Shown piece after piece: positions 11,320 to 34,066 of a stretch of DNA of 64,000 nt. Position numbers and translations under genes: made by a program. The stretch is taken from the NCBI RefSeq assembly GCF_028682635.1, contig NZ_JANHLK010000010.1, positions 62,001 to 126,000 of the forward strand, given 5' to 3'. The DNA is from Pseudomonas putida (lineage in GTDB: Bacteria; Pseudomonadota; Gammaproteobacteria; Pseudomonadales; Pseudomonadaceae). How positions within the stretch are numbered: position 1 is the first letter of the stretch; every line of letters starts with the position of its first letter. The notes beneath the pieces are model-generated. The model saw only the letters and a list, made by a program, of their open reading frames with translations, was not told where the DNA came from and did no database searches.

Positions 11320-11384
11320 GTTCGAAGGAATGAAGCCGAGGATGAAGTTGACCGCGTCCAAAGGAACGTACGCTGGAGGGAGAT
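11320..11384 (-). promoter_or_regulatory. Shared promoter block, copy a (upstream of the itaconate-type operon)
   Basis: On the plus strand it contains GTTCGAAGGAATG at 11320 and CGTCCAAAGGAACG at 11355, followed by TGGAGGGAG. The same two motifs with the same spacing (about 35 bases) and the same TGGAGGGAG tail occur at 33762-33821, and in opposite orientation at 34000-34066. In all three cases the block points toward a catabolic transcription unit. Here it is about 230 bases from the ich-like start, with a REP element in between. Confidence 0.5.
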
Positions 11385-11432
11385 TGGCACCAGCGATTTT
11401 GCTACTCCCCGACCGCCACGAAACAGAGGATC

Positions 11433-12140
11433 GTGGCTCAATTTACCGGGATCACTGTCATGCCTGGCCTGTTGCGCGATACGCTCACCGCCCTTGCGCT
11501 GTATGAACACGGTGAACTGCATGAGGCCGGGCAGCGACTGGCAGACCTCCTGCCCCAAGCCCGGCAGATCGCCGCAGCCGATAGCCTGGTCATCAGCCAC
11601 GTGCTGATGGCTCGCCTGGCCCTGGTGCGTGGCGAGCGAGAAACCTGGTTGCGCCACTTGATCGAGCTTGAGCGGTTCGGGCAAAAGACAGGCTGCACGC
11701 AAGCCCAGTCCGTGGCCTGGCTGGAACGCAGCCGGGTGGCGACCCTGAACAACCAGCTGGACGTCGCGCAGGTGGCCTTGCAAACAGCGCAAAGCATCAG
11801 CGGCCGACGGTCTTCCAAATTGGCAGAGCACCCTCGCTTGGGCGGTTTCTTGCAGTGTTTAATCGACGAAGGTGAACCCTTGGCGGCGCTGCTGGGACGT
11901 TGGGGCGAGCAGCGATGCGCGCATTCCGATAAGACCATCGCCCCCATAAGCCTTACCACAAGGGAAATACAGGTATTGCATCTGTTGGCCGCCGGGTATC
12001 GCAACCGTACGATCGCCCAGAAATTGTTCCTCAGCGAATCCACGGTCAAGACTCACCTGCACAAAATCAACGTCAAGCTCGGTGCCCGAAGCCGCACCCA
12101 GGCCCTGGCCATTGCCCGCACGCGGGGATGGCTGGACTGA
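11433..12140 (+). pseudogene. Remnant of a LuxR/MalT-type (LAL) regulator
   Basis: The 235-codon frame matches only the C-terminal third of the 835-917-residue LAL regulators in this window. The N-terminal ATPase is absent. The TPR segment (ALYEHGELHEAGQRLADLLP ... SHVLMARLALVRGERETWLRH ... VAWLERSRVATLNNQLDVAQ) aligns with the paralogue at 55.1 kb. The text then jumps from TAQSIS straight to LAEHPRLGGFLQCLIDEGEP, skipping about 95 residues present in the intact paralogues. The LuxR helix-turn-helix is intact (LTTREIQVLHLLAAGYRNRTIAQKLFLSESTVKTHLHKIN). It diverges from the itaconate-type operon, the same arrangement as the intact regulators and their targets. A short DNA-binding protein could still be made. 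Confidence 0.8.
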
Positions 12141-12147
12141 TCACTTG

Positions 12148-12249
12148 AACCCCTGTAGGAGCTGTCGAGTGAAACGAGGCTGCGATCTTTTGATTTTGTT
12201 TTAAAAGCCAATCAGAAGATCGCAGCCTGCGGCAGCTCCTACAGGGGTT
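12148..12249. repeat. Long palindromic repeat (CCCCTGTAGGAGCTG type), full copy
   Basis: A 102-base imperfect palindrome with termini AACCCCTGTAGGAGCTG and CAGCTCCTACAGGGGTT and inner arms GAGGCTGCGATCTTTTGAT and ATCAGAAGATCGCAGCCTGC. It lies between the convergent luxR remnant and DUF1329 gene. It probably also ends transcription from both sides. A second full copy is at 38.75 kb and partial ones at 1.0 and 5.6 kb. Confidence 0.85.
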
Positions 12250-12265
12250 GCGTTGGGATGAGGAT

Positions 12266-13633
12266 CTAGCGAATACCGGCGTTACGCAGCGCCGCCGGGG
12301 TGAAGTCGGCCATGGTGGGCTTATAGCTGTAGTCAGTGCCGCGCTTGTTTTCGTTACCCAGGTTCGACACCAGGTAACGCCCGGCGATCAGGTCATAGAT
12401 GCCGATCCCGGCGTAGACCGCCACGCCTTGCTGGTAATCGTTGACCAGATGCCCCTCGCTGACCCGCCACAGTTGACCGCGACCGTCGTACTGGTCGATT
12501 TCCACCGCTGCCCAGGTGTCCTCGTCGAAGTACATATGACGCTTGGCGTAGATGTGGCGCTCACCCGGGCGCAACGTGCCCTCCACTTCCCACACCCGAT
12601 GCAGCTCATAGCGGGTCAGGTCCTGGTTGATATGGCCGGGCTTGATGATGTCGGCGTATTTGAGCTTCGGCGATTGCAGCTGGTAGTTGTTGTACGGGAT
12701 GTACATCTCCTTCTTGCCGATCAGTTTCCAGTCATAGCGGTCCGGCGCGCCGTTGTACATGTCGGCGTTGTCCGCCACACGCATGCCGTCGGCGGCGGTG
12801 CCCGGGCCGTCATAGGCCACTTGCGGAGCCCGGCGCACGCGGCGCTGGCCGGCATTGTAGGCCCAGGCCATGCGCGGCTCCTTGACCTGGTCGAGGGTCT
12901 CGTGGATCAGCAGCACACTGCCCGCCATCCGTGCCGGCGCGGTCACCGTCTGCTTGGCAAAGAACAGGATGTTGGCGGTGTCCTCGGGCTTGGCGTCGAC
13001 CATTTTCCACGGCAAACCCGCCGCGATCTCGATGTCGACGATGGTGTAGTCACCATTGGTTTGCGGCGTGGCCTGGGCCTGGCGGTTGATGAAGTTGGTA
13101 CCCCGTGAACGGGTCAGGTGGTTCCACACCACCTCCAGGCCGTTTTTGGGAATCGGGAACGCGTAGTAGTGCGATTGTTCGAAGTTCTTCAGCGCGTAAC
13201 CGCCGTTGACCGCCTCGGTGGTCACCGCGCTTTTCTTCGCTGCGTCGTAGACTTCCTGGGGCGCCGATGCCGTGCGTTGGGTCTTGTACACCGGAATCCT
13301 GTAGGTGTCGGGATAACGCACGAACATTGCCAGCTGCCCGGGGGTGAGCTTGTCCTTGTACTGCGCGGCATTGGCGGCGGTGATCACGAACTGCGGCTTC
13401 TCCCCTTCGAAGGGGTTGCCGAGAAAGTCGTTGGTCATCGCCGCGGCGCCGGGTTTCAGGCCGCCGGTCCAGGCGGGAATGGTGCCGCTGGCATTGCCGG
13501 CCTTTTCCCCGCCCAGGGGCGTCAGGCTGGTGCCCAGTTTGGCCGCCTCCTGCGCCGACACCGCTGCCATGATGCTGGTGGATAGCAGACTCAGCGCCAG
13601 GGTGCCGCATGCAACAAGAATGATTTTTTTCAT
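12266..13633 (-). CDS. DUF1329 periplasmic/outer-membrane-associated protein (copy 1)
   Basis: A 455-residue precursor with a signal peptide (MKKIILVACGTLALSLLSTSIMAAVSAQ). The body shows LGTSLTPLGGEKAGNASGTIPAWTGGL, PDTYRIPVYKTQRTASAP and RGTDYSYKPTMADFTPAALRNAGIR, diagnostic of DUF1329. This family has a LolA-like fold and is repeatedly found with DUF1302 proteins in gene sets for hydrophobic substrates such as steroids, terpenoids and esters. The exact function is unproven; a periplasmic carrier of a lipophilic compound is the usual proposal. AAGGA lies eight bases before the start. It follows the DUF1302 gene on the same strand. The copy at 24.5 kb is nearly the same protein over most of its length, so the pair is a duplication. 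Confidence 0.9.
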   Translation of the reverse strand: MKKIILVACGTLALSLLSTSIMAAVSAQEAAKLGTSLTPLGGEKAGNASGTIPAWTGGLKPGAAAMTNDFLGNPFEGEKPQFVITAANAAQYKDKLTPGQLAMFVRYPDTYRIPVYKTQRTASAPQEVYDAAKKSAVTTEAVNGGYALKNFEQSHYYAFPIPKNGLEVVWNHLTRSRGTNFINRQAQATPQTNGDYTIVDIEIAAGLPWKMVDAKPEDTANILFFAKQTVTAPARMAGSVLLIHETLDQVKEPRMAWAYNAGQRRVRRAPQVAYDGPGTAADGMRVADNADMYNGAPDRYDWKLIGKKEMYIPYNNYQLQSPKLKYADIIKPGHINQDLTRYELHRVWEVEGTLRPGERHIYAKRHMYFDEDTWAAVEIDQYDGRGQLWRVSEGHLVNDYQQGVAVYAGIGIYDLIAGRYLVSNLGNENKRGTDYSYKPTMADFTPAALRNAGIR

Positions 13634-13659
13634 GGTCTTGATCCTTTGCAGTTGGGCTA

Positions 13660-15567
13660 TCAGAAGTTCACGCCGAGGCTCAAGGCCACGTAGTCGCGAT
13701 CGCCGTTGGAGTTGAAATGGCCGCCAAAGAAATCCGTGTAGCTGAGGCTGGCGGTGTAGAGGTTGGCGTAGTCGGCATCCACCCCGACGCTGACGGCCTT
13801 GAGGCCTTCCTCGAAGTTCGGGCCGTTACCCTCGACGTCATGGGACCAGGCGATGTTCGGCGCCAGGTTCACCCCGGCAAACACGTTCGGATAATCAAGT
13901 CGACCGCGCAGTCGATAGCCCCAGGAATCGGTGGTGTAGAAACCGTGGCTGTTGCACTCCTGTTGCGGGTTGCTCGGCCGGGTCACCCCGGCTGCCGCAC
14001 CTGGTACCTGGCTTGGCGCGCCGGCGCAGGTTTGCGCACCGGTGGGGCCGGCCCCCGCGCCTGTTGTCAGTACGCCTGCGCCGAAAATCGTGCTGCGACC
14101 GAAACGCACGTCGCTGCCGTCGGCGTCGCCCAGGCCGTTGATGCGGTTGTAACCCACCTCGCCCACCAGGGTCAGGCGGCTGGCCCCCATCACCTGATCG
14201 AAGAAACGCGTGGCGCTGAATTGGGTTTGCAGTACCGGCATCCGCACATAGCCGTCCAGTGGTGCACCCGCGACGTTCTGCGAAAGCCCCGCGACAAACG
14301 ACGGTGAGTTCTTGTTGCCCGTGGCCGCCAGGTTGAGGTCGGCACCGTTGAGTTGCAGTGGCATGTTTGGCCGGTAGCTGATCTCACCCCCCAGCGAGGT
14401 ACCGAGGGCATTGGTCGCGAAGCTCAGGCCGTAGAGTCGAATGTCCTCGGGGTAGACCACGTGGTACGTCGCGGTGCGGATCGAGCTGATCGCGCCTGGC
14501 ACGGTCGCCAGGCCGGCGCCGGTATTGGTGATCACGGTGGCGCGGGTGAAGTCGAGGTTGGGGTTACGGCTGTGGTAGTTGAGGAAATAGGCCCCGAACT
14601 CGGTGTCATTCAGGTCAGGCGCGAACCAGCGCAACGCCACGCCGAACTGGCCGCTGTCGCGGGCATCCTTGGTTTTGGTACGCGTCACATAGGCATCATC
14701 GACGCCGCCGCCCTGAGCGCCGGTGCCTGCCACTTGCAGGCCTGAGCCGGTGTTGCTGCCAACTCCGGGTGGCAGATCCAGACCGGCGATTACGGCGCGA
14801 TCGTTACAGCCTTCCGGCGTCACGTCGTTGCCGAAGAAGGTGCCGCAGTTGTCAATTACCGACGGCGCCCACTCGATCTGGTAGAAGGCTTCGGCGGTGA
14901 CGTTCTCGGAAAGGCCCTGCGAGACGTACAGCATGTTCACCGGAATCAGGCCTTCCTTGACCTCGGCACCGGGACGGCGCAGCGCGGCGACGTCAATCGG
15001 GTTGATGCTGTTGATCGAGTTGCCGATGAAGGTGCTTTCGCCCCAGCTCACCACCTGCTTGCCAAGGCGCACGTTGCCCTGCAATTCGTCGATCGTGTAG
15101 TTGTGGTAGACGAAACTGTCGAGGAACATCGCGCCGGATGATTTCGCGGCACGCTGGCGGCCGTGATCGTCGATGTCGTAGAACGGACGGCTCTCGTCCA
15201 TCAGTTCGAAGTCGTACCAGTACTTGCCGCGCACGAAGGCGCCGCTGTCGCCGTATTTCAGCTCCAGGTCATGCACGCCCTTGAAGATCTTCGAAAAGGT
15301 TTCACCCTTCTTGAAGTTCAACCGACCGTCATCGTTGGTGCGGGCTGAGGCGTTGCCACGAACTCCCTGCGAGTTGAAGTTGGAGATGAAATCCGGGTCC
15401 GGTCCACGTACCGCCCAACTGGCCCCCACCGACAGCGATGAATCGAAACTGCCCTCAATCTCACCCATATCGAAATTTACAGCGCAAGCCTGCGCGCTAA
15501 TCTCCAGTGCAACGGCTGCTGCCAGCAGGTGCGGTTGAAAGATTGCGCACTTTGTTGTTTTTGTCAT
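13660..15567 (-). CDS. DUF1302 outer-membrane beta-barrel protein (copy 1)
   Basis: A 635-residue precursor with an N-terminal export signal and a C-terminal Phe (DYVALSLGVNF), typical of outer-membrane barrels. DUF1302 signatures include SFDSSLSVGASWAVRGPDPD, LKYGDSGAFVRGKYWYDFEL, LGKQVVSWGESTFI and GINPID-like SINSINPIDVAALRRPG. It probably allows hydrophobic substrates across the outer membrane together with the DUF1329 partner encoded 26 bases downstream; that role is inferred. GGGGAG lies five bases before the start. A central stretch is almost identical in DNA to the second copy at 27 kb while the flanks differ, which points to gene conversion. It is divergent from the LAL regulator at 16.08 kb. 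Confidence 0.9.
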   Translation of the reverse strand: MTKTTKCAIFQPHLLAAAVALEISAQACAVNFDMGEIEGSFDSSLSVGASWAVRGPDPDFISNFNSQGVRGNASARTNDDGRLNFKKGETFSKIFKGVHDLELKYGDSGAFVRGKYWYDFELMDESRPFYDIDDHGRQRAAKSSGAMFLDSFVYHNYTIDELQGNVRLGKQVVSWGESTFIGNSINSINPIDVAALRRPGAEVKEGLIPVNMLYVSQGLSENVTAEAFYQIEWAPSVIDNCGTFFGNDVTPEGCNDRAVIAGLDLPPGVGSNTGSGLQVAGTGAQGGGVDDAYVTRTKTKDARDSGQFGVALRWFAPDLNDTEFGAYFLNYHSRNPNLDFTRATVITNTGAGLATVPGAISSIRTATYHVVYPEDIRLYGLSFATNALGTSLGGEISYRPNMPLQLNGADLNLAATGNKNSPSFVAGLSQNVAGAPLDGYVRMPVLQTQFSATRFFDQVMGASRLTLVGEVGYNRINGLGDADGSDVRFGRSTIFGAGVLTTGAGAGPTGAQTCAGAPSQVPGAAAGVTRPSNPQQECNSHGFYTTDSWGYRLRGRLDYPNVFAGVNLAPNIAWSHDVEGNGPNFEEGLKAVSVGVDADYANLYTASLSYTDFFGGHFNSNGDRDYVALSLGVNF

Positions 15568-15630
15568 GCGGCTCCCCGAACTACGGTTTGTGTTGGAGCG
15601 CCAACAGTAGGGACTGTGCCATCACGGTGA

Positions 15631-15647
15631 CATTCCCTGATGGGGTG
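15631..15647. promoter_or_regulatory. Inverted repeat upstream of DUF1302 copy 1 (site 3 of 5, degenerate)
   Basis: CATTCCCTGATGGGGTG about 65 bases before the DUF1302 start resembles the C-N4-G inverted repeats at the other catabolic promoters, but with shorter arms. A G-run (AGGGGGGGTGG) follows at about 15674. Confidence 0.3.
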
Positions 15648-15922: not shown

Positions 15923-16079
15923 CGGGCACGGCCGCGAGAGTTGGGTCGACTGTCAGGCCGCCATGGCAGGCAAGGGCCGAGCGCTCTTTTCAACCGAAAA
16001 GGGTATTGCCGGCGATGGCCAGGCTGCGGATGCTGTGGGCCGAACGCCAGAGCATCGCCCAAAGGCCCGGGAGAACGAC

Positions 16080-19706: not shown

Positions 19707-19748
19707 CAGGCGCGAGGCCGCCCGCAGGGTGATGGCGACGTCCAGAGG

Positions 19749-23201: not shown

Positions 23202-24389
23202 TCAGGCGCGACCGTAGAGGGTCACCACACAAGCACCACCCAGCCCCAGGTTGTGCGCCAGTGCCAGGTTGACGCCTTCGACCTGACGCTTGTCGGCATT
23301 GCCGCGCAGCTGTTGGGTCAGCTCGAAGCATTGCGCCAGGCCGGTCGCCCCCAGTGGGTGCCCCTTGGACAGCAGGCCGCCGGACGGGTTGGTCACCACC
23401 TGGCCGCCGTAGGTGTTGTTGCCGTCGATGATGAACTGCTCGGCGCAGCCGACATCGCACAGGCCCAGGGATTCATAGGTCAGCAGCTCGTTATGGGCAA
23501 AGCAGTCGTGCATTTCGGCGACGCGAATGTCCTGCGGGTCGACGCCGGCCTTCTCGTAGACTGCCCTGGCCGCCCGCTGCGCCATGTCGAAACCGACCAC
23601 TTCGATCATCGAACGGCTTTCGAAGCAGACCGGTTTGTCGGTGGTCAGCGATTGCGCGAGGATCACCACGTCCGTGCGCAGGCCATGTTTTTTAGCGAAA
23701 GCTTCGGAGCAGATGATCGCCGCCGCCGCGCCGCACGTTGGTGGGCAAGCCATCAGGCGGGTCATCACTCCCGGCCACATCACCATGTCGTTCATGACGT
23801 CTTCAGTGGTCACGACTTTGCGGAACAGCGCCAGCGGGTTGTTGGCGGCGTGACGGCTGGCCTTCGCGCGGATCGCGGCGAAGGTGCTCATCTGCGTGCC
23901 GTACTTTTGCATGTGCTCGCGACCGGCTCCGCCGAACATCCGCAGGGCACTCGGGATTTCGATATCAGAGGTCAGCTCGTCAATCACCGACTGGGTCATG
24001 TGCGTGGTCGCACGTGGGCGATCGTCCCAGTTGCCTTTCAGGGCGCCGGGTTGCATCTGCTCGAAACCAAATGCCAAGGCACATTCGACTGCCCCGCTTT
24101 CCACGGCCTGGCGTGCCAGGAACAGGGCACTGGAACCGGTGGCGCAGTTGTTGTTGACGTTGATTACCGGGATACCACTCATGCCTACTTCATAGAGCGC
24201 GGCCTGGCCGCTGGTGGAATCGCCATACACGTAGCCGGCATAGGCCTGCTGTACCAGGCGGTAGTCCACGCCGGCGTCTTGCAGCGCCAGGCGAATCGCC
24301 TGGGACCCCATTTCAATGTAGGTACCGCTGGTACCCGGTTTGACAAACGGAATCATGCCCACGCCGACAACGTAAGGTTTTTGCGACAT
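23202..24389 (-). CDS. SCP-x/lipid-transfer-type thiolase (copy 1)
   Basis: A 395-residue thiolase of the SCP-x (Ltp) branch. The nucleophile is C82 in VNNNCATGS. The other active-site motifs are MHDCFAHNE near 295, KGHPLGATG near 345 and LGLGGACVV close to the C-terminus. It should cleave a 3-ketoacyl-CoA, often one with a 2-methyl branch or a bulky ring, with CoA. In steroid side-chain pathways such enzymes may act as aldolases with a DUF35 partner, but none is encoded here. It is the last gene of the operon, after DUF1329 copy 2. Paralogues lie at 32.5 and 39.5 kb. Confidence 0.9.
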   Translation of the reverse strand: MSQKPYVVGVGMIPFVKPGTSGTYIEMGSQAIRLALQDAGVDYRLVQQAYAGYVYGDSTSGQAALYEVGMSGIPVINVNNNCATGSSALFLARQAVESGAVECALAFGFEQMQPGALKGNWDDRPRATTHMTQSVIDELTSDIEIPSALRMFGGAGREHMQKYGTQMSTFAAIRAKASRHAANNPLALFRKVVTTEDVMNDMVMWPGVMTRLMACPPTCGAAAAIICSEAFAKKHGLRTDVVILAQSLTTDKPVCFESRSMIEVVGFDMAQRAARAVYEKAGVDPQDIRVAEMHDCFAHNELLTYESLGLCDVGCAEQFIIDGNNTYGGQVVTNPSGGLLSKGHPLGATGLAQCFELTQQLRGNADKRQVEGVNLALAHNLGLGGACVVTLYGRA

Positions 24390-24472
24390 TGCTTCTCTCC
24401 AGATTCAGTGAACAGGACGCAGGGGGAAGCCGTTCGCGCTCATCGAGGGCGAACGGCAATGGTTCGATTGGC

Positions 24473-25840
24473 TTAGCGAATGCCGGCGTTACGCAGCGCG
24501 GCCGGGGTGAAATCGCCCATGGTCGGTTGATAGGCGTAATCGGTGCCGCGCTTGTTCTCGTTGCCCAGGTTGGACACCAGGTAGCGGCCTGCCAACAGGT
24601 CGTACACGCCCATCGCGGCATACACGGCGACGCCCTGCTTGTAATCGTTGACCAGGTAGCCTTCGCTCACACGCCACAGCGCACCACGACCGTCGTACTG
24701 GTCGATTTCCACGGCAGCCCAGGTGTCTTCATCGAAGTACATGTGACGCTTGGCGTAGATGTGGCGCTGGCCTGGCTTGAGCGTGCCCTCCACTTCCCAA
24801 ACGCGGTGCAGTTCGTAGCGGGTCAAGTCCTGGTTGATATGGCCCGGCTTGATGATGTCGGCATACTTCAACTTCGGCGATTGCAGCAGATAGTTGTTGT
24901 AGGGGACGTACACCTCTTTCTTGCCGATCAGCTTCCAGTCATAGCGATCCGGCGCACCATTGTACATGTCGGCGTTATCGGCCACGCGCATGCCGTCCGC
25001 CGCAGTGCCCGGGCCGTCATAGGCCACTTGTGGCGCACGCCGTACACGGCGCTGGCCGGCGTTGTAGGCCCAGGCCATGCGTGGTTCCTTGATCTGATCG
25101 AGGGTTTCATGGATCAGCAGCACGCCACCGGCCAGACGCGCCGGCGCGGTCACGGTTTGCTTGGTATAGAACAGGATGTTGGCGCTGTCCTCAGGCTTGG
25201 CGTCGCTCATTTTCCATGGCAGCCCCGTGGCGAACTCGATCTCCACCGGGGTGTAGTCTCCGTTGACCTGTGGCGTAGCCTGGATTTGACGACTGATGAA
25301 GTTGGTGCCACGAGAGCGGGTCAGATGGTTCCACACCACTTCCAAGCCAGTCTTGGGAATCGGGAATGCGTAGTAGTGCGACTGCTCGAAGTTTTTCAAC
25401 GAGTAGCCATCATTGGCCGACTCGGTGGTCACCGCGCTTTTCTTCACCGCGTCGTAGACCTCCTGGGGCGCCGATGCCGTGCGCTGGGTCTTGTACACCG
25501 GGATCTTGTAGGTGTCGGGGTAGCGCTGGAACAACGCCAGTTGCCCGGCGGTCAGGTTGGCCTTGTACTGCGCGGCATTGGCGGCGGTGATCACGAACTG
25601 CGGCTTTTCCCCTTCGAAGGGGTTGCCGAGAAAGTCGTTGGTCATTGGCGCGGCACCCGGCTTGAGGCCACCGGTCCAGGCGGGAATGGTACCGCTGGCA
25701 TTACCGGCCTTTTCCCCACCCAGGGGTGTTAGCGTGGTGCCCAGTTGCGCCGCTTCCTGGGGAGAAACCGCGGCCATCACGCTGGAAGCGATCAGGCTCA
25801 GGGTCAAGGTGCAGGCTTTAATCAGAGTGCTCGATTGCAT
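24473..25840 (-). CDS. DUF1329 protein (copy 2)
   Basis: A 455-residue exported protein (signal MQSSTLIKACTLTLSLIASSVMA) with the same length and nearly the same sequence as the copy at 12.3 kb, for example LGTTLTPLGGEKAGNASGTI and PTMGDFTPAALRNAGIR. Most differences fall in the signal peptide and a few surface positions. The start has GGAG nine bases upstream. It follows DUF1302 copy 2 by 25 bases and precedes the thiolase by 83. A periplasmic carrier for the hydrophobic substrate is the working idea from the family's LolA-like fold. Unlike copy 1, this pair is embedded in the beta-oxidation operon itself. Confidence 0.9.
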   Translation of the reverse strand: MQSSTLIKACTLTLSLIASSVMAAVSPQEAAQLGTTLTPLGGEKAGNASGTIPAWTGGLKPGAAPMTNDFLGNPFEGEKPQFVITAANAAQYKANLTAGQLALFQRYPDTYKIPVYKTQRTASAPQEVYDAVKKSAVTTESANDGYSLKNFEQSHYYAFPIPKTGLEVVWNHLTRSRGTNFISRQIQATPQVNGDYTPVEIEFATGLPWKMSDAKPEDSANILFYTKQTVTAPARLAGGVLLIHETLDQIKEPRMAWAYNAGQRRVRRAPQVAYDGPGTAADGMRVADNADMYNGAPDRYDWKLIGKKEVYVPYNNYLLQSPKLKYADIIKPGHINQDLTRYELHRVWEVEGTLKPGQRHIYAKRHMYFDEDTWAAVEIDQYDGRGALWRVSEGYLVNDYKQGVAVYAAMGVYDLLAGRYLVSNLGNENKRGTDYAYQPTMGDFTPAALRNAGIR

Positions 25841-25865
25841 TTTTATTATCTCCGTCTGACCGGTG

Positions 25866-27686
25866 TCAGAAGTTCACGCCGAAGCTGAGGGCGACGTAGT
25901 CGCGATCAGTGTTGGTATTCCACTTGCCGCCGAAGTAATCGGTGTAACTGAGACTCGCGGTGTAGGTGTTCATGTAGTCGGCATCCACGCCCAGGCTGAT
26001 GGCCTTGTCGCCTTCCTCGAAGTTGGGACCCACGCCATTGACGTCATGGGACCAGGCGAGGTTGGGCGACAGGTTGATGCCGGCAATCACGTTGGGGTAT
26101 TCGAGCTTGCCGCGCAGGCGATAGCCCCAGGAGTCGCTGGTATAGAAACCGTGGCTGTTGCATTCCTGCTGCGGGTTGCTCGGTCGGGTCACGCCAGGCT
26201 GGCCGGGCACCGGTGTGGCCTGGCCGGCGCAGACTGCCTGATTGACCAGTTGGCCTGCGCCGAATGCAGTGTTGCGACCGAAACGTTCCTCGCTACCGTC
26301 GCTTGCGCCCAGGCCGTTGATGTGGTTGTAGCCCACCTCGCCCACCAGGGTCAGGCGCTCGGAACCGAGTACCTGGTCGAAGAATCGGGTGGCGCTCATC
26401 TGCGCCTGCAGCACCGGCATGCGCTTGTAGCCCTCGACGCTGGCTCCCGCGACATTGGCGGACTGGCCACTGACGAACAGCGGCGAAGCGGCGTTGCCCA
26501 CGGCCGCCAGGTTGATGTCGGCGCCGTTGAGGTTCAACGGCATGTTCGGCCGGAAGCTCACCTCGCCGCCCAGCGAAGTACCCATCGCGTTGGTGGCGAA
26601 GCTCAGGCCATACAGGCGCACATCTTCGGGGTAGACCACGTTGTAGCTGGCGCTGCGAATCGCCGTCACCGCGTTGGCGGTGTTGGTCGCGCGGGTGAAG
26701 TTCAGGCTCGGGTTGCGGCTGTGATAGTTCATGGCGTAGGCGCCGAACTCGGTGTCGTTGAGTTCTGGCGCGTACCAGCGCAGGGCCAGGCCGAACTGGC
26801 CGCTGTCCCGGGCGTCCTTGGTCTTGGTGCGCGGGATGTAGGCGTCGTCCGCAAGGCCTGGGGCCCCGGTGTTGTTGGCCACGCCCGGTGGCAGATCGAG
26901 ACCTGCCAGCACGGCACGGTCGTTGCAGCCTTCGGGCGTGACGTCGTTGCCGAAGAAAGTGCCGCAGTTGTCGATCACCGACGGCGCCCACTCGATCTGG
27001 TAGAACGCCTCGGCGGTGAGGTTTTCCGTCAGGCCCTGGGACACGTACAGCATGTTCACCGGGATCAGGCCTTCCTTCACCTCGGCCCCCGGACGGCGCA
27101 GCGCCGCCACATCGATCGGGTTGATGCTGTTTATCGAGTTACCGATGAAGGTGCTTTCGCCCCAGCTCACCACCTGCTTGCCAAGGCGCACGTTGCCCTG
27201 CAATTCGTCGATCGTGTAGTTGTGGTAGACGAAGCTGTCGAGGAACATCGCGCCGGATGACTTCGCGGCACGCTGGCGGCCGTGATCGTCGATGTCGTAG
27301 AACGGACGGCTTTCATCCATCAGCTCGAAGTCATACCAGTATTTGCCGCGCACAAACGCGCCGCTGTCGCCGTATTTCAGCTCCAGGTCATGCACGCCCT
27401 TGAAGATCTTCGAGAAGGTCTCGCCCTTCTTGAAGTTCAGGCGGTTGTCATCGTTGGTGCGCGCCGATGCATTGCCCCGCACGCCCTGGGAATTGAAGTT
27501 GGAAATGAAATCCGGGTCCGGTCCGCGTACCGCCCAACTGGCGCCAACCGATAGCGCGGAATCGAAACTGCCTTCGATTTCACCAATGCTGAAATCCTTG
27601 GCAAAAGCCTGTGGGGTGACTGCCGCAGCGACGGCGACTGCCAGCAGGTTTGGGTAGCAAGCTCTACGCAATCTCGTAATGCTCAT
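25866..27686 (-). CDS. DUF1302 outer-membrane protein (copy 2)
   Basis: A 606-residue precursor. A much longer frame is open upstream, but I take the ATG at 27686 because CGGAGG lies just before it and the product then begins with a proper signal peptide (MSITRLRRACYPNLLAVAVAAAVTPQAFA). The mature part matches copy 1 (SFDSALSVGASWAVRGPDPD, LGKQVVSWGESTFI) and ends with NF like other barrels. It is about 30 residues shorter than copy 1, mostly in the surface loop near residues 270-300 and the Gly/Ala-rich loop near 500. Variable loops on a conserved barrel suggest the two copies may admit different ligands. It is in the operon between the acyl-CoA synthetase and DUF1329. Confidence 0.9.
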   Translation of the reverse strand: MSITRLRRACYPNLLAVAVAAAVTPQAFAKDFSIGEIEGSFDSALSVGASWAVRGPDPDFISNFNSQGVRGNASARTNDDNRLNFKKGETFSKIFKGVHDLELKYGDSGAFVRGKYWYDFELMDESRPFYDIDDHGRQRAAKSSGAMFLDSFVYHNYTIDELQGNVRLGKQVVSWGESTFIGNSINSINPIDVAALRRPGAEVKEGLIPVNMLYVSQGLTENLTAEAFYQIEWAPSVIDNCGTFFGNDVTPEGCNDRAVLAGLDLPPGVANNTGAPGLADDAYIPRTKTKDARDSGQFGLALRWYAPELNDTEFGAYAMNYHSRNPSLNFTRATNTANAVTAIRSASYNVVYPEDVRLYGLSFATNAMGTSLGGEVSFRPNMPLNLNGADINLAAVGNAASPLFVSGQSANVAGASVEGYKRMPVLQAQMSATRFFDQVLGSERLTLVGEVGYNHINGLGASDGSEERFGRNTAFGAGQLVNQAVCAGQATPVPGQPGVTRPSNPQQECNSHGFYTSDSWGYRLRGKLEYPNVIAGINLSPNLAWSHDVNGVGPNFEEGDKAISLGVDADYMNTYTASLSYTDYFGGKWNTNTDRDYVALSFGVNF

Positions 27687-27796
27687 GCGTCCTCCGATTG
27701 AATTGACACAAGGAGACCCGTGCGCACCGGTGGATGCGCTTGAGTTCCTGGCGTTGGAAATAAGATGCGCGGCCGCAACGACCGCGCGACACTGGT

Positions 27797-29362
27797 TCAG
27801 GCGATCCCGCGCTGCTGGTTTTCCCAGAAGGGTTTGCGCAGTTCGGTCTTCAGCACTTTGCCGACGCTGGTCAGCGGCAGTGCTTCGCGGAACTCGACAC
27901 TGCGCGGCACCTTGTAGCCAGCAATCCGCTCGCGGCAGTGGGCAATGATTTCTTCGCTGCTGGCCTTGATGCCAGGCTTGAGAATGATCACCGCATGCAC
28001 GGACTCGCCCCATCTCTGGCAGGGGATGCCGATCACGGCACTTTGTGCCACGGCGGGATGGCTGCCGATGGCCGCCTCAACTTCCCCGCAGTAGACGTTT
28101 TCGCCGCCACTGACCACCATGTCCTTGAGACGGTCGCAGATGTAGATGAAGCCGTCCTCGTCCATGTAGCCGCCGTCACCGGTGTGCATCCAGCCGCCGC
28201 GCAGCGCCTCGGCAGTGGCCTCGGGTTTTTTCCAGTAACCGAGCATCACGTTCGGGCCGCGCACGATGATTTCGCCCACGGTGCCGCGCGGCACTTCGTT
28301 GTCGTTGGCGTCTACCACTCGTATTTCCACGCACTGTACCGGCAGGCCGGCCGAGTACATCTTGCCGCTCGCCTGGTGCTCCGCGCTGTGATACTCGCTG
28401 TCGAGGATCGCCGCTGCCGGGGCCAGTTCGGTCATGCCGTAGCCTTGGGAGAAATCGGCATCGGTGAACACCGCGCGTGCCCGGTCCAGCAAGGCCGGGG
28501 TTATGGTGGAAGCGCCGTAGATGATGCGATTGAGCGAGCTAAGATCCAGGTCCCGACCCTGTGCCTGGTGCCAGTCAAGCACCATCTGGATCATGGTTGG
28601 CGCGAGCAGCACCTCATTGGCTTTCTCCTGGTCAATGGCATGCAGAACGCCTTGCGCGGTAAAGGTCTGCAAAACCGCATGGGTCGCGCCACTGATGAAA
28701 CAGGCCGTCATCGCGGCGAAGTCCGCCAGGTGGAACATCGGCATCGCGTGGAGAAATGTCGAACCCGCGCTGCAACGGCCGGCGATCAAGGAGTTCATCG
28801 CCGAGAACGCCACGTTGCTGTGGCTGAGCATCACGCCTTTAGGCTGGCCGGTGGTGCCGCCGGTGTAGAAAATGCCAAGCAAGGCATCACCGCTGCGGCG
28901 CGCATCTTCCACCGGCTCGCTGATCTCGATCAGGGTTTCGTAGTTGAGCATCCCCGGTGGTGTTTCGCCGTCACCGGCGTAGATCACCACACGTACGGTT
29001 TTCGCCTGTTCCTGCACCTTGGCGCCCAGTGCCTTGTGGTGATCGTCGACGATCAGCACGGTGGTTTCTGAGTCGTCCAGCGAATAGACGATCTCCGCCA
29101 GGCTCCAGCGAAAGTTCACCGGATTGACCACGGCATCGGCCCACGGCACAGCCTGGTAATACTCGATGAAGCGTTGCGAGTTGAAGGACAGCATGGCCAC
29201 GCGATCACCACTGCCGACATCCAGGCCTTTCAATGCACTGGCCAGGCGCGCGACGCGATCACCGAATTCGGCGTAGGTGATGCTGTGGCCGCCCTGAGAG
29301 CGGATGGCCACGGCATTGGGACGTTGCTGCAGATGACGGTGCAGCCCTTGAGTGATGTACAT
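27797..29362 (-). CDS. AMP-forming acyl-CoA synthetase (copy 2)
   Basis: A 521-residue ANL ligase, a close paralogue of the 1.05 kb gene. Visible motifs are YTGGTTGQPKG (about 166-176), GYWKKPEATAEALRGGWMHT, the hinge CDRLKDMVVSGGENVY and the C-terminal SVGKVLKTELRKPFW, whose lysine is essential in the family. GGAG lies six bases before the start. It follows the acyl-CoA dehydrogenase at 29.45 kb, with 90 bases between, and sits upstream of the DUF1302/DUF1329 pair. It should supply the acyl-CoA that the same operon oxidises. Two paralogous ligases suggest either two substrates or two activation steps, such as side chain and residual acid. Confidence 0.9.
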   Translation of the reverse strand: MYITQGLHRHLQQRPNAVAIRSQGGHSITYAEFGDRVARLASALKGLDVGSGDRVAMLSFNSQRFIEYYQAVPWADAVVNPVNFRWSLAEIVYSLDDSETTVLIVDDHHKALGAKVQEQAKTVRVVIYAGDGETPPGMLNYETLIEISEPVEDARRSGDALLGIFYTGGTTGQPKGVMLSHSNVAFSAMNSLIAGRCSAGSTFLHAMPMFHLADFAAMTACFISGATHAVLQTFTAQGVLHAIDQEKANEVLLAPTMIQMVLDWHQAQGRDLDLSSLNRIIYGASTITPALLDRARAVFTDADFSQGYGMTELAPAAAILDSEYHSAEHQASGKMYSAGLPVQCVEIRVVDANDNEVPRGTVGEIIVRGPNVMLGYWKKPEATAEALRGGWMHTGDGGYMDEDGFIYICDRLKDMVVSGGENVYCGEVEAAIGSHPAVAQSAVIGIPCQRWGESVHAVIILKPGIKASSEEIIAHCRERIAGYKVPRSVEFREALPLTSVGKVLKTELRKPFWENQQRGIA

Positions 29363-29452
29363 GAAAACTCCAAATTGCTTTTTTATTATTCAATCGATTT
29401 GGAACTATCGACGTGGCTGTCGGGCCGACCACAGTCGGAGTCAGCCCTGTTG

Positions 29453-30595
29453 TCACAGCGAACGCGCAACGACCTCGCGCTGAATCTCGTTGGAGCCACC
29501 GTAGATGCGTGCCACCCGTGCATCGGCCCACATCCGCCCGATCGGGTACTCGTTCATGTAGCCGTAGCCACCGAACAGTTGCAGGCAGCGATCGAGCACT
29601 TCACCCTGGCGTTCGGTCAGCCAGAACTTGCCCATCGACGCCAGCGTGGTGTCGAGGGTGCCGTCGATCCAACGCTGGATGATCAGGTCGACGAAGGTCC
29701 TGGCCGCCATGACCGTCGCCTTGGCGTCCGCCAGCACGAAGCGGCTGTTCTGGAAGTCGATCACCGGTTTGCCGAAGGCCTTGCGATCCTTGGTGTATTC
29801 CACGGTCAGGCGCAGGGCGCGCTCCATTACCGCCACAGCGCCAACGCCGATCTGCGCGCGCTCGTATGGCAGCTGGCTCATCAGGGTGTAGAACCCTTGT
29901 CCTTCCACTTCGCCCAACAGGCAATCGGCGGGCACTTCAACGTCGTCGAAGAACATCTCCGAAGTGTCCTGGGCATGCATGCCGACTTTGCTCAGCAGCT
30001 TGCCGCGACGGAAACCCGGGGTGTTGGTGTCGACCATGAACAGCGAAACGCCCTTGGCGCCCTGGGTGATGTCGGTCTTGGCGATCACCAGCACCATGTC
30101 GCAGGTCTGGCCATTGCTGATAAAGGTCTTGGCGCCATTGATGACGTATTTGTCGCCCCGCTTCACGGCGCGGGTGCGAACTGATTGCAGGTCCGAGCCG
30201 GCACCGGGTTCTGTCATGGCGATGGCGCAGATCATCTCGCCGGAACCGATCTTCGGCAGCCAGTGCTTCTTCTGCGCTTCGGTGCCGGATTCGAGGATGT
30301 AATGAGCGACGATGTGGCTCAGGCCAAGGCCCAGGCCGCCACCGAAGGTGCTCATCGCGTTGCACACGCACACGTAGTGGCCGATGTCGCCCCCCGCACC
30401 GCCGTACTCCTGCGAGACATCCGGAAGAATAAGACCCAATTCACCGGCCTTGAGCCACGCAGAACGATCGGCGAAGTGCTGCTCACGCCACTTCAGTTCA
30501 TTGGGCTCCATGTATTCCTTGCCGAAGCGCATGACCATGTCGTTGAACGACTCCAGGTCCTCGGTCATCCACGGGGAGCGGTAATTTTCCAGCAT
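29453..30595 (-). CDS. Acyl-CoA dehydrogenase (long-chain/isovaleryl type)
   Basis: A 380-residue FAD enzyme with complete landmarks: MTEPGAGSDLQSVRTRA, KYVINGAKTFISNGQTCD, GMHAQDTSEMFFDDVEVP, LFGGYGYMNEYPIGRMWADA and IYGGSNEIQREVVARSL. The base in the C-terminal loop is Gly (YGGS), so the glutamate of LPYERAQIG is the likely catalytic base, as in LCAD and IVD. It introduces a 2,3-double bond and reduces ETF. The ATG at 30595 has GAGG eight bases upstream; the GTG nine bases earlier is less likely. It is third last before the outer-membrane genes in the operon and follows the SDR by 97 bases. Confidence 0.9.
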   Translation of the reverse strand: MLENYRSPWMTEDLESFNDMVMRFGKEYMEPNELKWREQHFADRSAWLKAGELGLILPDVSQEYGGAGGDIGHYVCVCNAMSTFGGGLGLGLSHIVAHYILESGTEAQKKHWLPKIGSGEMICAIAMTEPGAGSDLQSVRTRAVKRGDKYVINGAKTFISNGQTCDMVLVIAKTDITQGAKGVSLFMVDTNTPGFRRGKLLSKVGMHAQDTSEMFFDDVEVPADCLLGEVEGQGFYTLMSQLPYERAQIGVGAVAVMERALRLTVEYTKDRKAFGKPVIDFQNSRFVLADAKATVMAARTFVDLIIQRWIDGTLDTTLASMGKFWLTERQGEVLDRCLQLFGGYGYMNEYPIGRMWADARVARIYGGSNEIQREVVARSL

Positions 30596-30692
30596 TGCAA
30601 ACACCTCAAGTTCTTGGGCTTGTTACCCGCGGGCGGGCAACAAGCTCGACGAATCGTTGGCCCTGCTTACCAGGGCACACGCCGCAACAGCC

Positions 30693-31526
30693 TTAGAAAT
30701 TCGAACCTGGACCGCCGCCGCAGAAGATGACCTGGCCGGAGCAGAAGTTGGATTCCGGCAGGCAGAACATCACTACTGCACCCGCGGCTTCTTCTGGTTT
30801 GCCGACACGACCCAACGGGATGGTGGCGGCCACACCGTCGAGACGCGCCTGCTGCACGCCGACCTTGATTTCGCGACCTTCAATGTTCACGGTCTTGCTG
30901 TCCTCGCCAGCCAGGGCCTGGGTCAGGCGCGTGTCGATCAAACCGAACGCGACGGCGTTGACGTTGACTTTCAGGCGGCCCCACTCCTTGGACAGGGTCT
31001 TGGTCAGGCCCAGAATCCCGGATTTGCCCGAGGAATAGTTGGACTGGCCGACGTTGCCACCAGCAGCGCCGGAGGAAATGTTCACCACCTTGCGCAGCAC
31101 TTCTCGGCCTTCGGCGGCTTCTTTCTTGGCCATGGCGCTGATGATCGGCTGGGCGGCACGCAGGATGCGGAACGGCGCGGTCAGGTGGCAGTCGATGACC
31201 GCGTACCACTGCTCGTCGCTCATCTTCTGGATCACGTTGTCCCAGGTGAAACCGGCGTTGTTGATGATGATGTCGATGGAGCCATAGCTCTTGACGGCGG
31301 TCTGCACGAAACGGTCGGCGAAGTCCGGCGCGGTGACGCTGCCTACGCACGCCACGGCTTCGCCGCCAGCGGCGCGAATTTCGGCGACTACTTCTTCAGC
31401 CGGTGCAGCGTCCAGGTCGTTGACCACGACTTTCGCGCCGTAGGCGGCCAGTTGCAGAGCGACTTCACGACCAATGCCACGGCCGGAACCGGTGACCAGA
31501 GCGACTTTGCCTTCAAGCTTTTTCAT
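30693..31526 (-). CDS. SDR-family 3-hydroxyacyl-CoA dehydrogenase
   Basis: A 277-residue short-chain dehydrogenase/reductase. The cofactor motif TGSGRGIG is at residues 12-19 and NNAG at 89-92. The catalytic triad is Ser151 or Ser152, Tyr164 and Lys168 (YSSGK). In a beta-oxidation operon it most likely oxidises the 3-hydroxyacyl-CoA to the 3-keto form with NAD+. FabG-like reductase activity cannot be excluded. The C-terminal FCGGGPGSNF is unusual, with a glycine run where SDRs usually have VDGG. It follows the MaoC-type genes and precedes the dehydrogenase gene. AGGAACAATAAAAA precedes the start with long spacing. Confidence 0.88.
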   Translation of the reverse strand: MKKLEGKVALVTGSGRGIGREVALQLAAYGAKVVVNDLDAAPAEEVVAEIRAAGGEAVACVGSVTAPDFADRFVQTAVKSYGSIDIIINNAGFTWDNVIQKMSDEQWYAVIDCHLTAPFRILRAAQPIISAMAKKEAAEGREVLRKVVNISSGAAGGNVGQSNYSSGKSGILGLTKTLSKEWGRLKVNVNAVAFGLIDTRLTQALAGEDSKTVNIEGREIKVGVQQARLDGVAATIPLGRVGKPEEAAGAVVMFCLPESNFCSGQVIFCGGGPGSNF

Positions 31527-31560
31527 TTTTTATTGTTCCTGAGTGAGGGATTCAAGGAGT

Positions 31561-31995
31561 TCAGGCCAGGGCCACGACGGCTTCGCCGACGAGCTTTTCT
31601 TCGCCGTACTGGTTGGCGCAACGGATCTGCAGGCGCACGCGCTTCTCACCGTTTTCTTCGAATTTTTCGGTAATGGTGCCGGTGCAGGTCGGGATGTGCC
31701 CCAGATGGGTAATGCCGGTGAAACGGATCGACAGGCTGCGCACTTGCTGCTGTGGTACCCATTGGGTCAACAGGCGACCCAGGTAGGCGGCCGACAACAT
31801 GCCGTGGGCGAACACGTCGGGCATGCGCGATTTGCGGGCGAAATCGATGTCGATATGGATCGGGTTGTGATCACCCGACGCGCCGCAGTACAGCGCCAGG
31901 GTGGTGCGGTTAACCGGTTGCAGTTTGAGAAGCGGGATCACATCGCCAATCTGGACATCGGAGAATTGCGCGTGGGTGGTGTTGGAGAGCGTCAT
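31561..31995 (-). CDS. MaoC-like enoyl-CoA hydratase, catalytic subunit
   Basis: A 144-residue single hot-dog protein. It carries the hydratase-2 motif YCGASGDHNPIHIDIDFA, with the catalytic Asp/His pair in GDHNPIH, and the following AHGMLSAAYLGRLLTQW helix. I choose the ATG at 31995, which has AGGA seven bases upstream and leaves ten bases to the preceding gene; a longer frame would overlap it. It should act with the product of the gene just upstream as a two-subunit R-specific enoyl-CoA hydratase, as HadAB-type and steroid side-chain hydratases do. It lies between that subunit and the SDR, which handles the next step. Confidence 0.87.
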   Translation of the reverse strand: MTLSNTTHAQFSDVQIGDVIPLLKLQPVNRTTLALYCGASGDHNPIHIDIDFARKSRMPDVFAHGMLSAAYLGRLLTQWVPQQQVRSLSIRFTGITHLGHIPTCTGTITEKFEENGEKRVRLQIRCANQYGEEKLVGEAVVALA

Positions 31996-32005
31996 CGACA
32001 TTTCC

Positions 32006-32443
32006 TCAGCGCTGTACGAGGGACGAGCGGACATCGGCGATATGCACGCCGTCCTGGTTGGTTACCCGTGATTCCATGACCACGAATTGCAGGGCCCCGC
32101 CCTTTTTCTCGTAGACATCGGTGATGCTGGCGTTGAAGGTCAGCACGTCGCCGGCATAGGCCATGGCGTGGTACACGAAGGACTGCTCGGCGTGCAGGAT
32201 GCGGCCCAGGTCAAAGTTGCACAGCTTGAGGAAAGCGGTCAGGTCGCGACCTTCACCTTCCAGGCACTTGAGAAAGGTCGGCGGTACCGGCAAGGCCTTG
32301 TGGCCCGCGGCGATGGCCGCCGCCTCGCTGGTGTACACCGGATCGGTTTCACCAATCGCCTTGGCGAAGAAGCGCAGGCGGCCCTTCTCCACATCGACGC
32401 TGAATTTATCGAGCTTGTGCCCGATCAGGCTCTTGTCAGCCAT
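32006..32443 (-). CDS. MaoC/FAS1-like dehydratase, non-catalytic partner subunit
   Basis: A 145-residue hot-dog protein that starts MADKSLIGHKLDKFSVDVEKGRL and continues AKAIGETDPVYTSEAAA, VPPTFLKCLEGEGRD, DLGRILHAEQSFVYHAMAYA. It has the fold of the N-terminal MaoC dehydratase family (PF13452 type) but no DxxxxH catalytic pair, so a heterodimer with the downstream subunit is expected. The ATG at 32443 has GAGGAG eight bases upstream; the GTG three codons earlier is less likely. It follows the thiolase of copy 2 by 32 bases and precedes its partner by ten, in one transcript. Confidence 0.85.
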   Translation of the reverse strand: MADKSLIGHKLDKFSVDVEKGRLRFFAKAIGETDPVYTSEAAAIAAGHKALPVPPTFLKCLEGEGRDLTAFLKLCNFDLGRILHAEQSFVYHAMAYAGDVLTFNASITDVYEKKGGALQFVVMESRVTNQDGVHIADVRSSLVQR

Positions 32444-32475
32444 GTGTCTCACTCCTCTTGTTGTTATGGAAAAAC

Positions 32476-33660
32476 TCAGTTGCGCCCGTACATCGTGACC
32501 ACGCAGGCGCCGCCCAGGCCGAGGTTGTGTTGCAAGGCGATGTTCAGGTCTTCGACCTGGCGTTTGTCGGCGGTGCCGCGCAGCTGATGGGTCAGCTCAT
32601 AGCACTGGGCAAGGCCCGTGGCGCCCAATGGGTGGCCCTTGGAAAGCAGGCCGCCGGACGGGTTGGTTACCACCTGGCCGCCGAAGGTGTTGTCGCCATC
32701 GAGGACGAACTGTTCGCCGCCACCGACGGCACACAGGCCCAGGCCTTCGTAGGTCAGCAGCTCGTTGTGTGCGAAGCAGTCATGCAGCTCCACGGCGCGC
32801 ACGTCCTGAGGACCGACGCCGGCCTGCTCGTAAACCAGCTGCGCGGCGCGTTGGGTCATGTGGAAGCCGGCATAGGCGATCATTGATGGCGGATCGAAGG
32901 ACTCCACCGGATCGGTGACCATCGACTGCGCGAGGATCACCACGTCACTGCGCAGGCCGTGTTTCTTGGCGAAGGCCGGCGAGCAGATGATCGCCGCCGC
33001 CGCGCCACAGGTCGGCGGGCAAGCCATCAGGCGAGTCATCACGCCCGGCCACAGCAGCTGGTCATTCATCACGTCTTCTGTGGTCAGTACTTTCTTGAAC
33101 AGCGCCAACGGGTTGTTCGCGGCATGACGGCTGGCCTTGGCGCGGATGGCGGCGAAGGTTTCCATACGGGTGCCGTACTTCTGCATGTGTTCGCGACCGG
33201 CACCGCCGAAAGTCTTCAGTGCACGCGGCAGGTCGACGTCGCGGGTCAGGCCTTCCAGCACGTGGACCACACTGGCCCGGGTCTGTGGACGGTCATCCCA
33301 GTGCGACTTGAGTGCGCCAGCCTGCATCTGCTCGAAACCCAGGGCCAGCACGCACTCCGCCTGACCGCTCTGCACGGCAGCGCGGGCCAGGTACAGCGCG
33401 GTGGAACCGGTGGAGCAGTTGTTGTTGACGTTGACGATCGGGATGCCGGTGCGGCCCACTTCATACAGGGCGGTCTGGCCGCAGGTGGAGTCGCCAAACA
33501 CGTAACCGGTGAAGGCCATCTGCACCTTGTCGTACGTTATGCCGGCGTCCTTCAGGGCCAGGCGCACGGCTTCGGCGCCCATGTCGGTGTAGCTGGGGCT
33601 GGCACCCGGCTTGGCGAAGGGGATCATGCCGACCCCGGCGACTACGACTTTTTCACTCAT
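32476..33660 (-). CDS. SCP-x/lipid-transfer-type thiolase (copy 2), first gene of the operon
   Basis: A 394-residue paralogue of the 23.2 kb thiolase, with VNNNCSTGS (nucleophile Cys), LHDCFAHNE, KGHPLGATG and LGLGGACVV. The ATG at 33660 has AAGGAAA about seven bases upstream; a longer frame begins 48 codons earlier, but that part has no thiolase character. It opens the minus-strand operon of thiolase, hydratase subunits, SDR, dehydrogenase, ligase, DUF1302, DUF1329 and thiolase. An 18-base near-palindrome (ACCTGCCGG/CCGGTAGGT) and the shared promoter block lie upstream. Confidence 0.9.
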   Translation of the reverse strand: MSEKVVVAGVGMIPFAKPGASPSYTDMGAEAVRLALKDAGITYDKVQMAFTGYVFGDSTCGQTALYEVGRTGIPIVNVNNNCSTGSTALYLARAAVQSGQAECVLALGFEQMQAGALKSHWDDRPQTRASVVHVLEGLTRDVDLPRALKTFGGAGREHMQKYGTRMETFAAIRAKASRHAANNPLALFKKVLTTEDVMNDQLLWPGVMTRLMACPPTCGAAAAIICSPAFAKKHGLRSDVVILAQSMVTDPVESFDPPSMIAYAGFHMTQRAAQLVYEQAGVGPQDVRAVELHDCFAHNELLTYEGLGLCAVGGGEQFVLDGDNTFGGQVVTNPSGGLLSKGHPLGATGLAQCYELTHQLRGTADKRQVEDLNIALQHNLGLGGACVVTMYGRN

Positions 33661-33698
33661 GGATGAATTTCCTTTTGGCATACACGTTCGGTTGTCGT

Positions 33699-33716
33699 AC
33701 CTGCCGGCCGGTAGGT
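33699..33716. promoter_or_regulatory. Near-palindrome before the long operon
   Basis: ACCTGCCGG and CCGGTAGGT form an 18-base dyad with one mismatched pair, 39 bases before the thiolase ATG. It is close enough to overlap the promoter or transcription start. Confidence 0.35.
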
Positions 33717-33761
33717 TCTTGTGGGGATTCATCCTAGGTTTGCCCATGGCGGTGCTACGAC

Positions 33762-33821
33762 CGTCGAAGGGATGAAGTTGCGGAGGTAGTGGGAGGCGTT
33801 CCAAGGAACGTTTGGAGGGAG
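33762..33821 (-). promoter_or_regulatory. Shared promoter block, copy b (upstream of the thiolase operon)
   Basis: On the plus strand CGTCGAAGGGATG at 33762 and CGTTCCAAGGAACG at 33797 (six-base arms CGTTCC/GGAACG) are followed by TTTGGAGGGAG. It is the clearest copy of the block shared with 11320-11384 and 34000-34066. It lies about 100 bases upstream of the thiolase start and points toward it. Confidence 0.55.
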
Positions 33822-33848
33822 TAAATCGATGAGGACAGGAGACTCAAC

Positions 33849-33938
33849 TGTAGGAGCTGGCTTGCCAGCGAAGGCGGTGTGTCAGGCGAAATGAATGTCG
33901 GATGTGCCGCCCCCATCGCTGGCAGGCCAGCTCCCACA
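33849..33938. repeat. REP palindrome (CTGGCTTGCCAGCG variant)
   Basis: CTGTAGGAGCTGGCTTGCCA and, inverted, ATCGCTGGCAGGCCAGCTCC flank about 45 bases. It lies between the two facing promoter blocks in the 466-base divergent gap; no gene is seen in this gap. Confidence 0.85.
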
Positions 33939-33999
33939 ATGATCTCGGGTAGCCGCAGGTTTTGCGTTCAGCCGCTCTCACAGGTGAGTGCCTGACTAC

Positions 34000-34066
34000 T
34001 CCCCCGGACCATCCCTTCGAACGATCCCCCGCCTACTCCGCAGCATCATCCCTTCGGCGCTCGCTG
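34000..34066 (+). promoter_or_regulatory. Shared promoter block, copy c (upstream of the 34.1 kb dehydrogenase)
   Basis: ATCCCTTCGAACG at 34011 and ATCCCTTCGGCGC at 34048 are direct repeats 37 bases apart, preceded by ACTCCCCC. Between them, CTACTCCGCAGCATC matches the CTACCTCCGCAACTTC of copy b read on the other strand. It lies about 60 bases before the dehydrogenase ATG and points toward it. Confidence 0.5.

Follow-up and report, generated by a model that had tools for sequence, protein, structure and literature searches.

The window analysed here is a 64,000-nucleotide stretch of a 6.76-Mb Pseudomonas genome (contig C2, 62001-126000), and it carries four copies of a promoter block, designated a to d, each just upstream of catabolic genes. 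These blocks are likely the activator-dependent promoters of a small regulon under one clade of MalT-type (LAL) regulators, represented in the window by LAL3 and LAL4, and the three fatty-acid-like degradation units that follow blocks b, c, and d are probably induced together, judging from the sequence. Block a, which precedes the itaconate-type genes, looks like a damaged remnant. An earlier note on this DNA had described three copies; blocks a, b, and c were found at the coordinates that it gave, and the divergent gap in which it had placed b and c was confirmed (33661-34126, 466 bases), while the count rises to four with block d (55084-55187), which had been overlooked. R1 and R2 in the following list are two sequence models described below.

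33727..33826, minus strand: block b, candidate promoter of the thl1 operon (thiolase ATG at 33660), found with R1 and R2 and kept in relatives; proximal site 33758-33776, distal site 33797-33809, -10-like CCTAGGAT at 33731-33738.
33992..34093, plus strand: block c, candidate promoter of acad3-tes (acad3 ATG at 34127), found with R1 and R2 and kept in relatives; distal site 34011-34023, proximal site 34045-34063, -10-like CCCAGCAT at 34082-34089.
55084..55187, minus strand: block d, candidate promoter of aldh-adh-acad6-acad5-sulfatase-etf (likely aldh ATG at 54977), found with R1 and R2; proximal site 55115-55133, distal site 55154-55166, -10-like TCTAGTAT at 55088-55095.
11310..11382, minus strand: block a, upstream of ich (ATG at about 11122), found with R1 and R2; proximal site 11316-11334, distal site 11355-11367, and no -10 at the conserved place.

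The order of the elements on the coding strand is tail, distal site, proximal site, -10, and then the gene. The earlier note had each block point toward its gene, but when the TCGAAGGRATG motif is read first and the tail last, as it proposed, each block points away from it. The tail forms the CTCC half of the distal unit, and a matching element stands ahead of the proximal site, so that the block consists of one bipartite site repeated in tandem and in direct orientation (CTCC ... GTTCnTTCGAAC; CTCC ... TTCATCCCTTCG), laid out as CTCC, about 13 bases, GTTCnTTCGAACG, about 20 bases that include the second CTCC, TTCATCCCTTCGacGGTCG, 18 or 19 bases, and CCTAGNAT. This last, -10-like component was absent from the earlier description; it is present in b, c, and d and is not found at that place in a. 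The distance between the two TTCG cores is 35, 36, or 37 bp in 38 of the 42 blocks collected, and CCTAGNAT starts 37 or 38 bases past the start of the proximal site, again in 38 of the 42, both counts being generous to the proposed layout in that they take the best match to the consensus and the models also favour copies with a -10. The 42 include one copy (jinj_fadD, L194) that is probably no true block, and leave out two R1 matches, L184 and L185, that were judged to be noise.

When the two sites were compared with each other in 29 of the 42 blocks, with near-identical ones and odd spacings removed, direct repeats in register scored 4.24 and the next best arrangement 2.47, over a background of all registers and orientations with a mean of 0.04 and a standard deviation of 1.34. 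The distal site is nearly palindromic (3.67) and the proximal site less so (1.99). In two blocks, L166 (G320) and L187 (P. jinjuensis), the cores are 26 and 24 bp apart, approximately one helical turn closer than usual, as would be expected if helical phasing matters. With a +1 assumed seven bases past the -10 hexamer, the centre of the proximal core of block c falls near -41.5, where a class II activator would sit, and that of the distal core near -78.5. A sigma-70-type pair of -35 and -10 hexamers was found in none of the three promoter regions (0.0-0.2 expected), as expected for activator-dependent promoters.

The occurrence of the block is far beyond chance. The 13-mer CGAAGGRATGAWG has five exact matches in the genome, of which three are blocks a, b, and c, and the second motif is missing, on inspection, from the other two (L004 and L005); a search that tolerates one mismatch gives 43 matches, compared with five for a reversed control pattern. 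Model R1 was built from eight promoter blocks of four other species (P. vranovensis, P. jinjuensis, Pseudomonas sp. H9, and P. schmalbachii), with no sequence from the window. Searched against the whole genome, it recovers b at E = 4.5e-17, c at 3.6e-13, a at 3.1e-7, and the fourth copy d (55086-55184, minus strand) at 7.0e-5, the next match being at E = 0.189; these E-values, like those of R2, are rough according to the search tool's own warning. Blocks b and c are orthologous to the training set of R1, and a and d are independent finds. Model R2, trained on 33 blocks, with b, c, and d among them but not a, returns the same four blocks in the window with a drop from 34 to 6 bits afterwards, and in the whole genome it finds block a at E = 1.0e-7 and no fifth block below E = 0.47. 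The earlier note had asked whether the pattern occurs at random across the genome and whether it is kept in orthologous promoters: both models return the four blocks and then noise, and the pattern is present at the orthologous thiolase and dehydrogenase promoters of related species. Its proposal that separate catabolic units have promoter elements in common is supported.

Conservation is limited to the sites and the -10, with flanking bases turning over. P. putida ASAD is a close relative in which acad3 is 99% identical to that of the window genome; between the two, b, c, and d show no change in their operators or -10, and the adjacent bases differ. Block d is conserved ahead of aldh in six further genomes, and in other species blocks are also found ahead of a fadD-acad3 operon, a sulfatase gene (P. 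vranovensis), and a DUF1329 gene (P. jinjuensis, where the copy is weak).

The candidate activators in the window are the following.

42155..44914, plus strand: LAL3, MalT-type regulator and candidate activator of b and c (TPR_MalT, GerE; clade membership).
55136..57823, plus strand: LAL4, MalT-type regulator and candidate activator of d and possibly of itself (TPR_MalT, GerE).

LAL3 and LAL4 fit the domain definition of LAL proteins. They are 919 and 895 aa long, close to the roughly 900 residues of the family, with a C-terminal LuxR-type helix-turn-helix (HTH; GerE at 857-909 in LAL3 and 833-888 in LAL4), and both have MalT-like tetratricopeptide repeats (TPR_MalT 101.2 and 84.1 bits, cut-off 45). 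The N-terminal NTPase carries the MalT-like Walker A variants AAAGFGKT and AGPGYGKT in LAL3 and LAL4, while the strict pattern G....GK[ST] was not found in either. Residues 23-428 of LAL4 match MalT (8bob) at 8.5e-39, its Pfam NTPase matches being under the cut-off, and LAL3 matches AAA_22 with 27.1 bits (cut-off 27). A tree of LAL proteins groups LAL3 and LAL4 in a single clade together with the LALs that adjoin fadD-type blocks. Genes of the LAL3 clade (LAL3 itself, before 42155, and L199, L201, L206, and L209) seem by eye to have in common an element of their own, GTGGCAnnAT, before the start, and the fadD-type regulators L206 and L209 have, also by eye, extra CTAGTTCGnnnGAAC-like sites upstream.

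This clade and the block occur together. Among 398 Pseudomonas genomes, ten contain the LAL3/LAL4 clade (LAL4 query, E <= 1e-150) and 13 have R1 matches at E <= 0.001; blocks outside long reading frames are found with R1 in eight of the ten clade genomes and in none of the 388 others. Five genomes without the clade (G295, G106, G094, G207, and G057) were excluded as false matches, given that their matches sit in stop-free frames of 762-791 codons; frame length by itself does not tell true from false, with six of the 18 retained blocks also spanned by stop-free frames (443-570 codons), and the exclusions also rested on the lack of the -10 layout and on reading by eye. With these five put back, the association is eight of ten versus five of 388. 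R2 adds a ninth clade genome, G027, with a block 2.2 kb from the LAL gene. Of the 35 full-length clade LALs, which come from 12 genomes, 12 have a block no more than 3 kb upstream, and of 25 other LALs none has one (60 of the 65 rows of the adjacency table, five partial LALs omitted; block lists at E <= 0.001 and E <= 0.05). Blocks often adjoin a divergent clade LAL gene, Burkholderiales included, and the order LAL, block, fadD is kept in Cupriavidus numazuensis and Paraburkholderia unamae. Block d abuts LAL4 in the window, and likewise the LAL4 orthologue in four further genomes. The d-type blocks of seven genomes carry a variant of their own (CCTACCTTTGG), with a clade LAL beside six of the seven, which hints that each LAL may prefer its own version of the block. 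The predicted start codon of LAL4 (55136) lies inside block d, between the proximal and distal sites, and a bound LAL there could repress the LAL4 gene while activating aldh.

Several observations weigh against the assignment of the blocks to this clade. No block is found upstream of LAL3 itself, and 23 of the 35 clade LALs have none within 3 kb. The clade is present in G264 with no R2 block above noise, and a clade LAL is present in Cupriavidus pauculus with no block detected. One of the eight genomes, G285, is the H9 assembly (L064) that was used to build R1, and orthologues are not independent in any of these counts, so that the Fisher values for the genome association and for the adjacency table serve only as a guide. 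Block d lacks the MalT core GGATGA, and LAL2 stands beside the b/c units in all four relatives where it was found, so that position alone would fit LAL2.

The earlier note placed the itaconate module under the same control as the other units, and its suggestion that co-regulation would put this module at the end of the same pathway is a conjecture. The features concerned are these.

5636..11122, minus strand: itaconate-type operon ich-acad1-mmgE-ict-ccl (Pfam).
11433..12140, plus strand: C-terminal piece (235 aa) of a LAL3-clade regulator, divergent from ich and beside block a (GerE and weak TPR_MalT).

The product of ich matches the solved itaconyl-CoA hydratase 8khg at 2.3e-125, and ccl resembles RipC below the cut-off (152 of 375 bits). 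Co-regulation of this operon looks ancestral and is doubtful in the window strain: both operators of block a are kept, while the -10 is absent, the operators change fast, and the neighbouring LAL is a fragment, which groups on a long branch with G400_C17 and G401_C47b. The relative G372 has a complete a-type block, with the -10 CATAGCAT at offset 37, followed by a reading frame that weakly matches metallo-beta-lactamase (22.6 bits, cut-off 22.7) and then ich; the LAL match beside it is also a C-terminal part only. Between the position of the -10 and a point just before ich, the window and ASAD differ from G372 and contain a REP-like sequence. Loss of the -10 in the window and ASAD is the simpler reading because nearly all blocks carry one.

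Block a may also be a functional LAL promoter that drives ich through another -10, such as the nearby TTTATC or the GAGCAT just before ich. Its operators are still recognisable in the window genome (R1 E = 3.1e-7, as above) and the sequence immediately before ich is common to the window, G372, and ASAD, both of which would suit a working promoter. This is nonetheless unlikely, given that the place of the missing -10 is the one kept in 38 of the 42 blocks, that no sigma-70-type promoter pattern was found in 11123-11432, that the adjoining LAL is truncated, and that between the window and ASAD the operators have changed at five of 32 bases in a and at none of 96 in b, c, and d together.

Among 29 other Pseudomonas ich loci (of 57 ich places outside the window), 22 carry a LysR signature and none carries the block; in the window no LysR stands beside ich, and the LAL fragment is there instead. 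The best match to the ich-type LysR in the window genome is 41% identical and on another contig, G372 has no close copy either, and ASAD has a 70% copy elsewhere in its genome. A two-motif regular expression run on 30 ich loci gave one chance-looking match and missed block a, and was too crude for this purpose. In this lineage, control of ich probably passed from LysR to a LAL cassette, which later lost its -10 in the window strain. A wider scenario is put forward only tentatively, as somewhat less probable than its opposite: a paralogous LAL family with one operator code from Pseudomonas to Burkholderiales would move as LAL-block-operon cassettes, one of which would have seized the itaconate operon from LysR, with the promoter complete in G372 and decaying in the window strain/ASAD lineage. 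The LAL match in G372, truncated as well, takes a little off our confidence in it.

Another explanation accepts the blocks as real and has them bound by LAL2 (35862-38810), LAL1 (15963-18587), or a TetR-like protein (57909-58658). LAL2 adjoins tes of the acad3 unit in the four relatives (L061-L064). LAL1 and LAL2, however, lie on long branches outside the LAL3/LAL4 clade and have different recognition helices; no LAL outside the clade in the adjacency table has a block within 3 kb upstream (LAL1 and LAL2 themselves fall under the search threshold and are not in that table), and the fadD-type blocks of other genomes adjoin clade LALs. On helices, tree, and adjacency, LAL1 and LAL2 were rejected as the main regulator and the explanation as a whole is improbable, with LAL2 keeping a small chance of a role. 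The idea that the blocks play no part in regulation, being a dispersed repeat or alike by chance, can be dismissed: REP-like repeats do occur between b and c and beside a, but the genome has four copies only, each just upstream of genes, with conservation restricted to the sites and the -10, and chance is rejected by the CGAAGGRATGAWG counts against the control, by the genome-wide R1 and R2 searches, and by the 398 genomes, in which the five other R1 matches are those in long stop-free frames.

The activator of MalT type that the earlier note had suggested is, on sequence features, still the best candidate, and the regulators are LALs, while the operator is MalT-like only. In the literature searched, which leaves out most subscription papers, no paper was found on this operator or on a LAL protein that regulates a cluster of this kind. 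The MalT regulons (the maltose genes of E. coli and Klebsiella and the MalT region of Actinoplanes) likewise combine a LAL activator with asymmetric direct-repeat sites, one of them over the -35, and the MalT box has the core TCATCC (GGATGA) (PMC7567727). With a GGA(T/G)GA core in direct repeat near the -35 taken as the mark of a MalT box, the blocks resemble one in part: GGATGA stands in the proximal site of b and c, has one mismatch in a, and is missing from d, and the direct repeat is supported. Compared with the MalT boxes, the sites of the blocks are longer and bipartite, the distal one is nearly palindromic, and the core distance is 36-37 bp, a few being one turn shorter. The targets here are genes of CoA-ester catabolism, and the clade members score under the NCBIfam MalT cut-off (LAL4 317 of 537 bits). 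The tetramethylpyrazine promoter of Rhodococcus jostii, activated by the LAL protein TpdR, is also catabolic and has two upstream direct repeats, one of them overlapping the -35 (PMC6099782). It resembles the blocks by description, and differs in its 15-bp repeats, its additional inverted pair, its organism, and its pathway (PMC6099782). As for the itaconate degradation operons of Pseudomonas (ict/ich/ccl with LysR), the ich product is homologous to 8khg here too, whereas the ich of the window has a LAL block and a LAL fragment beside it and no LysR.

In the mechanism that we propose, in which binding, activation, start sites, inducer, and the pairing of LALs with promoters are all predicted from sequence, the LAL would presumably bind an inducer and ATP and would then occupy both bipartite sites of the tandem. 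The proximal site would lie over the -35 region, with its centre near -41.5, and the centre of the distal site would be near -78. From there the bound LAL would bring RNA polymerase to the CCTAGNAT -10. Of the four promoters, b, c, and d are intact and would be induced together, with LAL3 more likely to act on b and c and LAL4 on d. Block a would be what remains of a fourth promoter, formerly within a LAL-block-operon cassette at the spot that a LysR gene takes up beside most other ich genes of Pseudomonas.

The units that would respond belong to a large catabolic island.

23202..33660, minus strand: unit downstream of b, with thl1, two hydratase-type genes, an SDR gene, acad2, a CoA ligase gene, a DUF1302/DUF1329 pair, and thl2 (putative extent; Pfam).
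34127..35861, plus strand: unit downstream of c, with acad3 and the thioesterase-like gene tes (Pfam).
46459..54979, minus strand: unit downstream of d, with aldh, adh, acad6, acad5, the sulfatase gene, and the ETF pair (putative extent; Pfam and start codon options).

The island contains itaconate-type genes, two DUF1302/DUF1329 pairs, SCP2-type thiolases, and several acyl-CoA dehydrogenases, and also encodes MaoC-type hydratases, CoA ligases, a sulfatase, an ETF pair, and several MalT-like (LAL) regulators. The DUF1329/DUF1302 gene pairs lie at 12266-15567 and 24473-28013 (minus strand), neither with a block of its own in the window strain. On the minus strand at 18447-19706, a 419-aa frame corresponds to the C-terminal half of a LAL-clade regulator with an odd extension past the HTH, and is the second truncated LAL of the island. 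On the plus strand, 21027-22739 is an open frame of 570 codons that is GC-rich at third positions and for which neither Pfam nor NCBIfam gave a match at the thresholds used. The acyl-CoA dehydrogenase genes acad5 and acad6 are adjacent (49960-52450, minus strand), and acad6 is nearest to PDB 6wy8 (Tcur3483) and 4x28, which are heteromeric steroid side-chain enzymes. The likeness of acad6 to these, together with the SCP2-type thiolase, hints at a branched or steroid-like acyl substrate.

Given that one inducer is expected to induce b, c, and d, the question of the substrate becomes testable. The four-promoter regulon indicates which genes of this large catabolic island should work together, and the block gives a concrete operator of fixed geometry for a MalT-type clade for which no described site was found in the literature. 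The itaconate copy may be a natural regulator swap in which a complete and a broken version can be compared.

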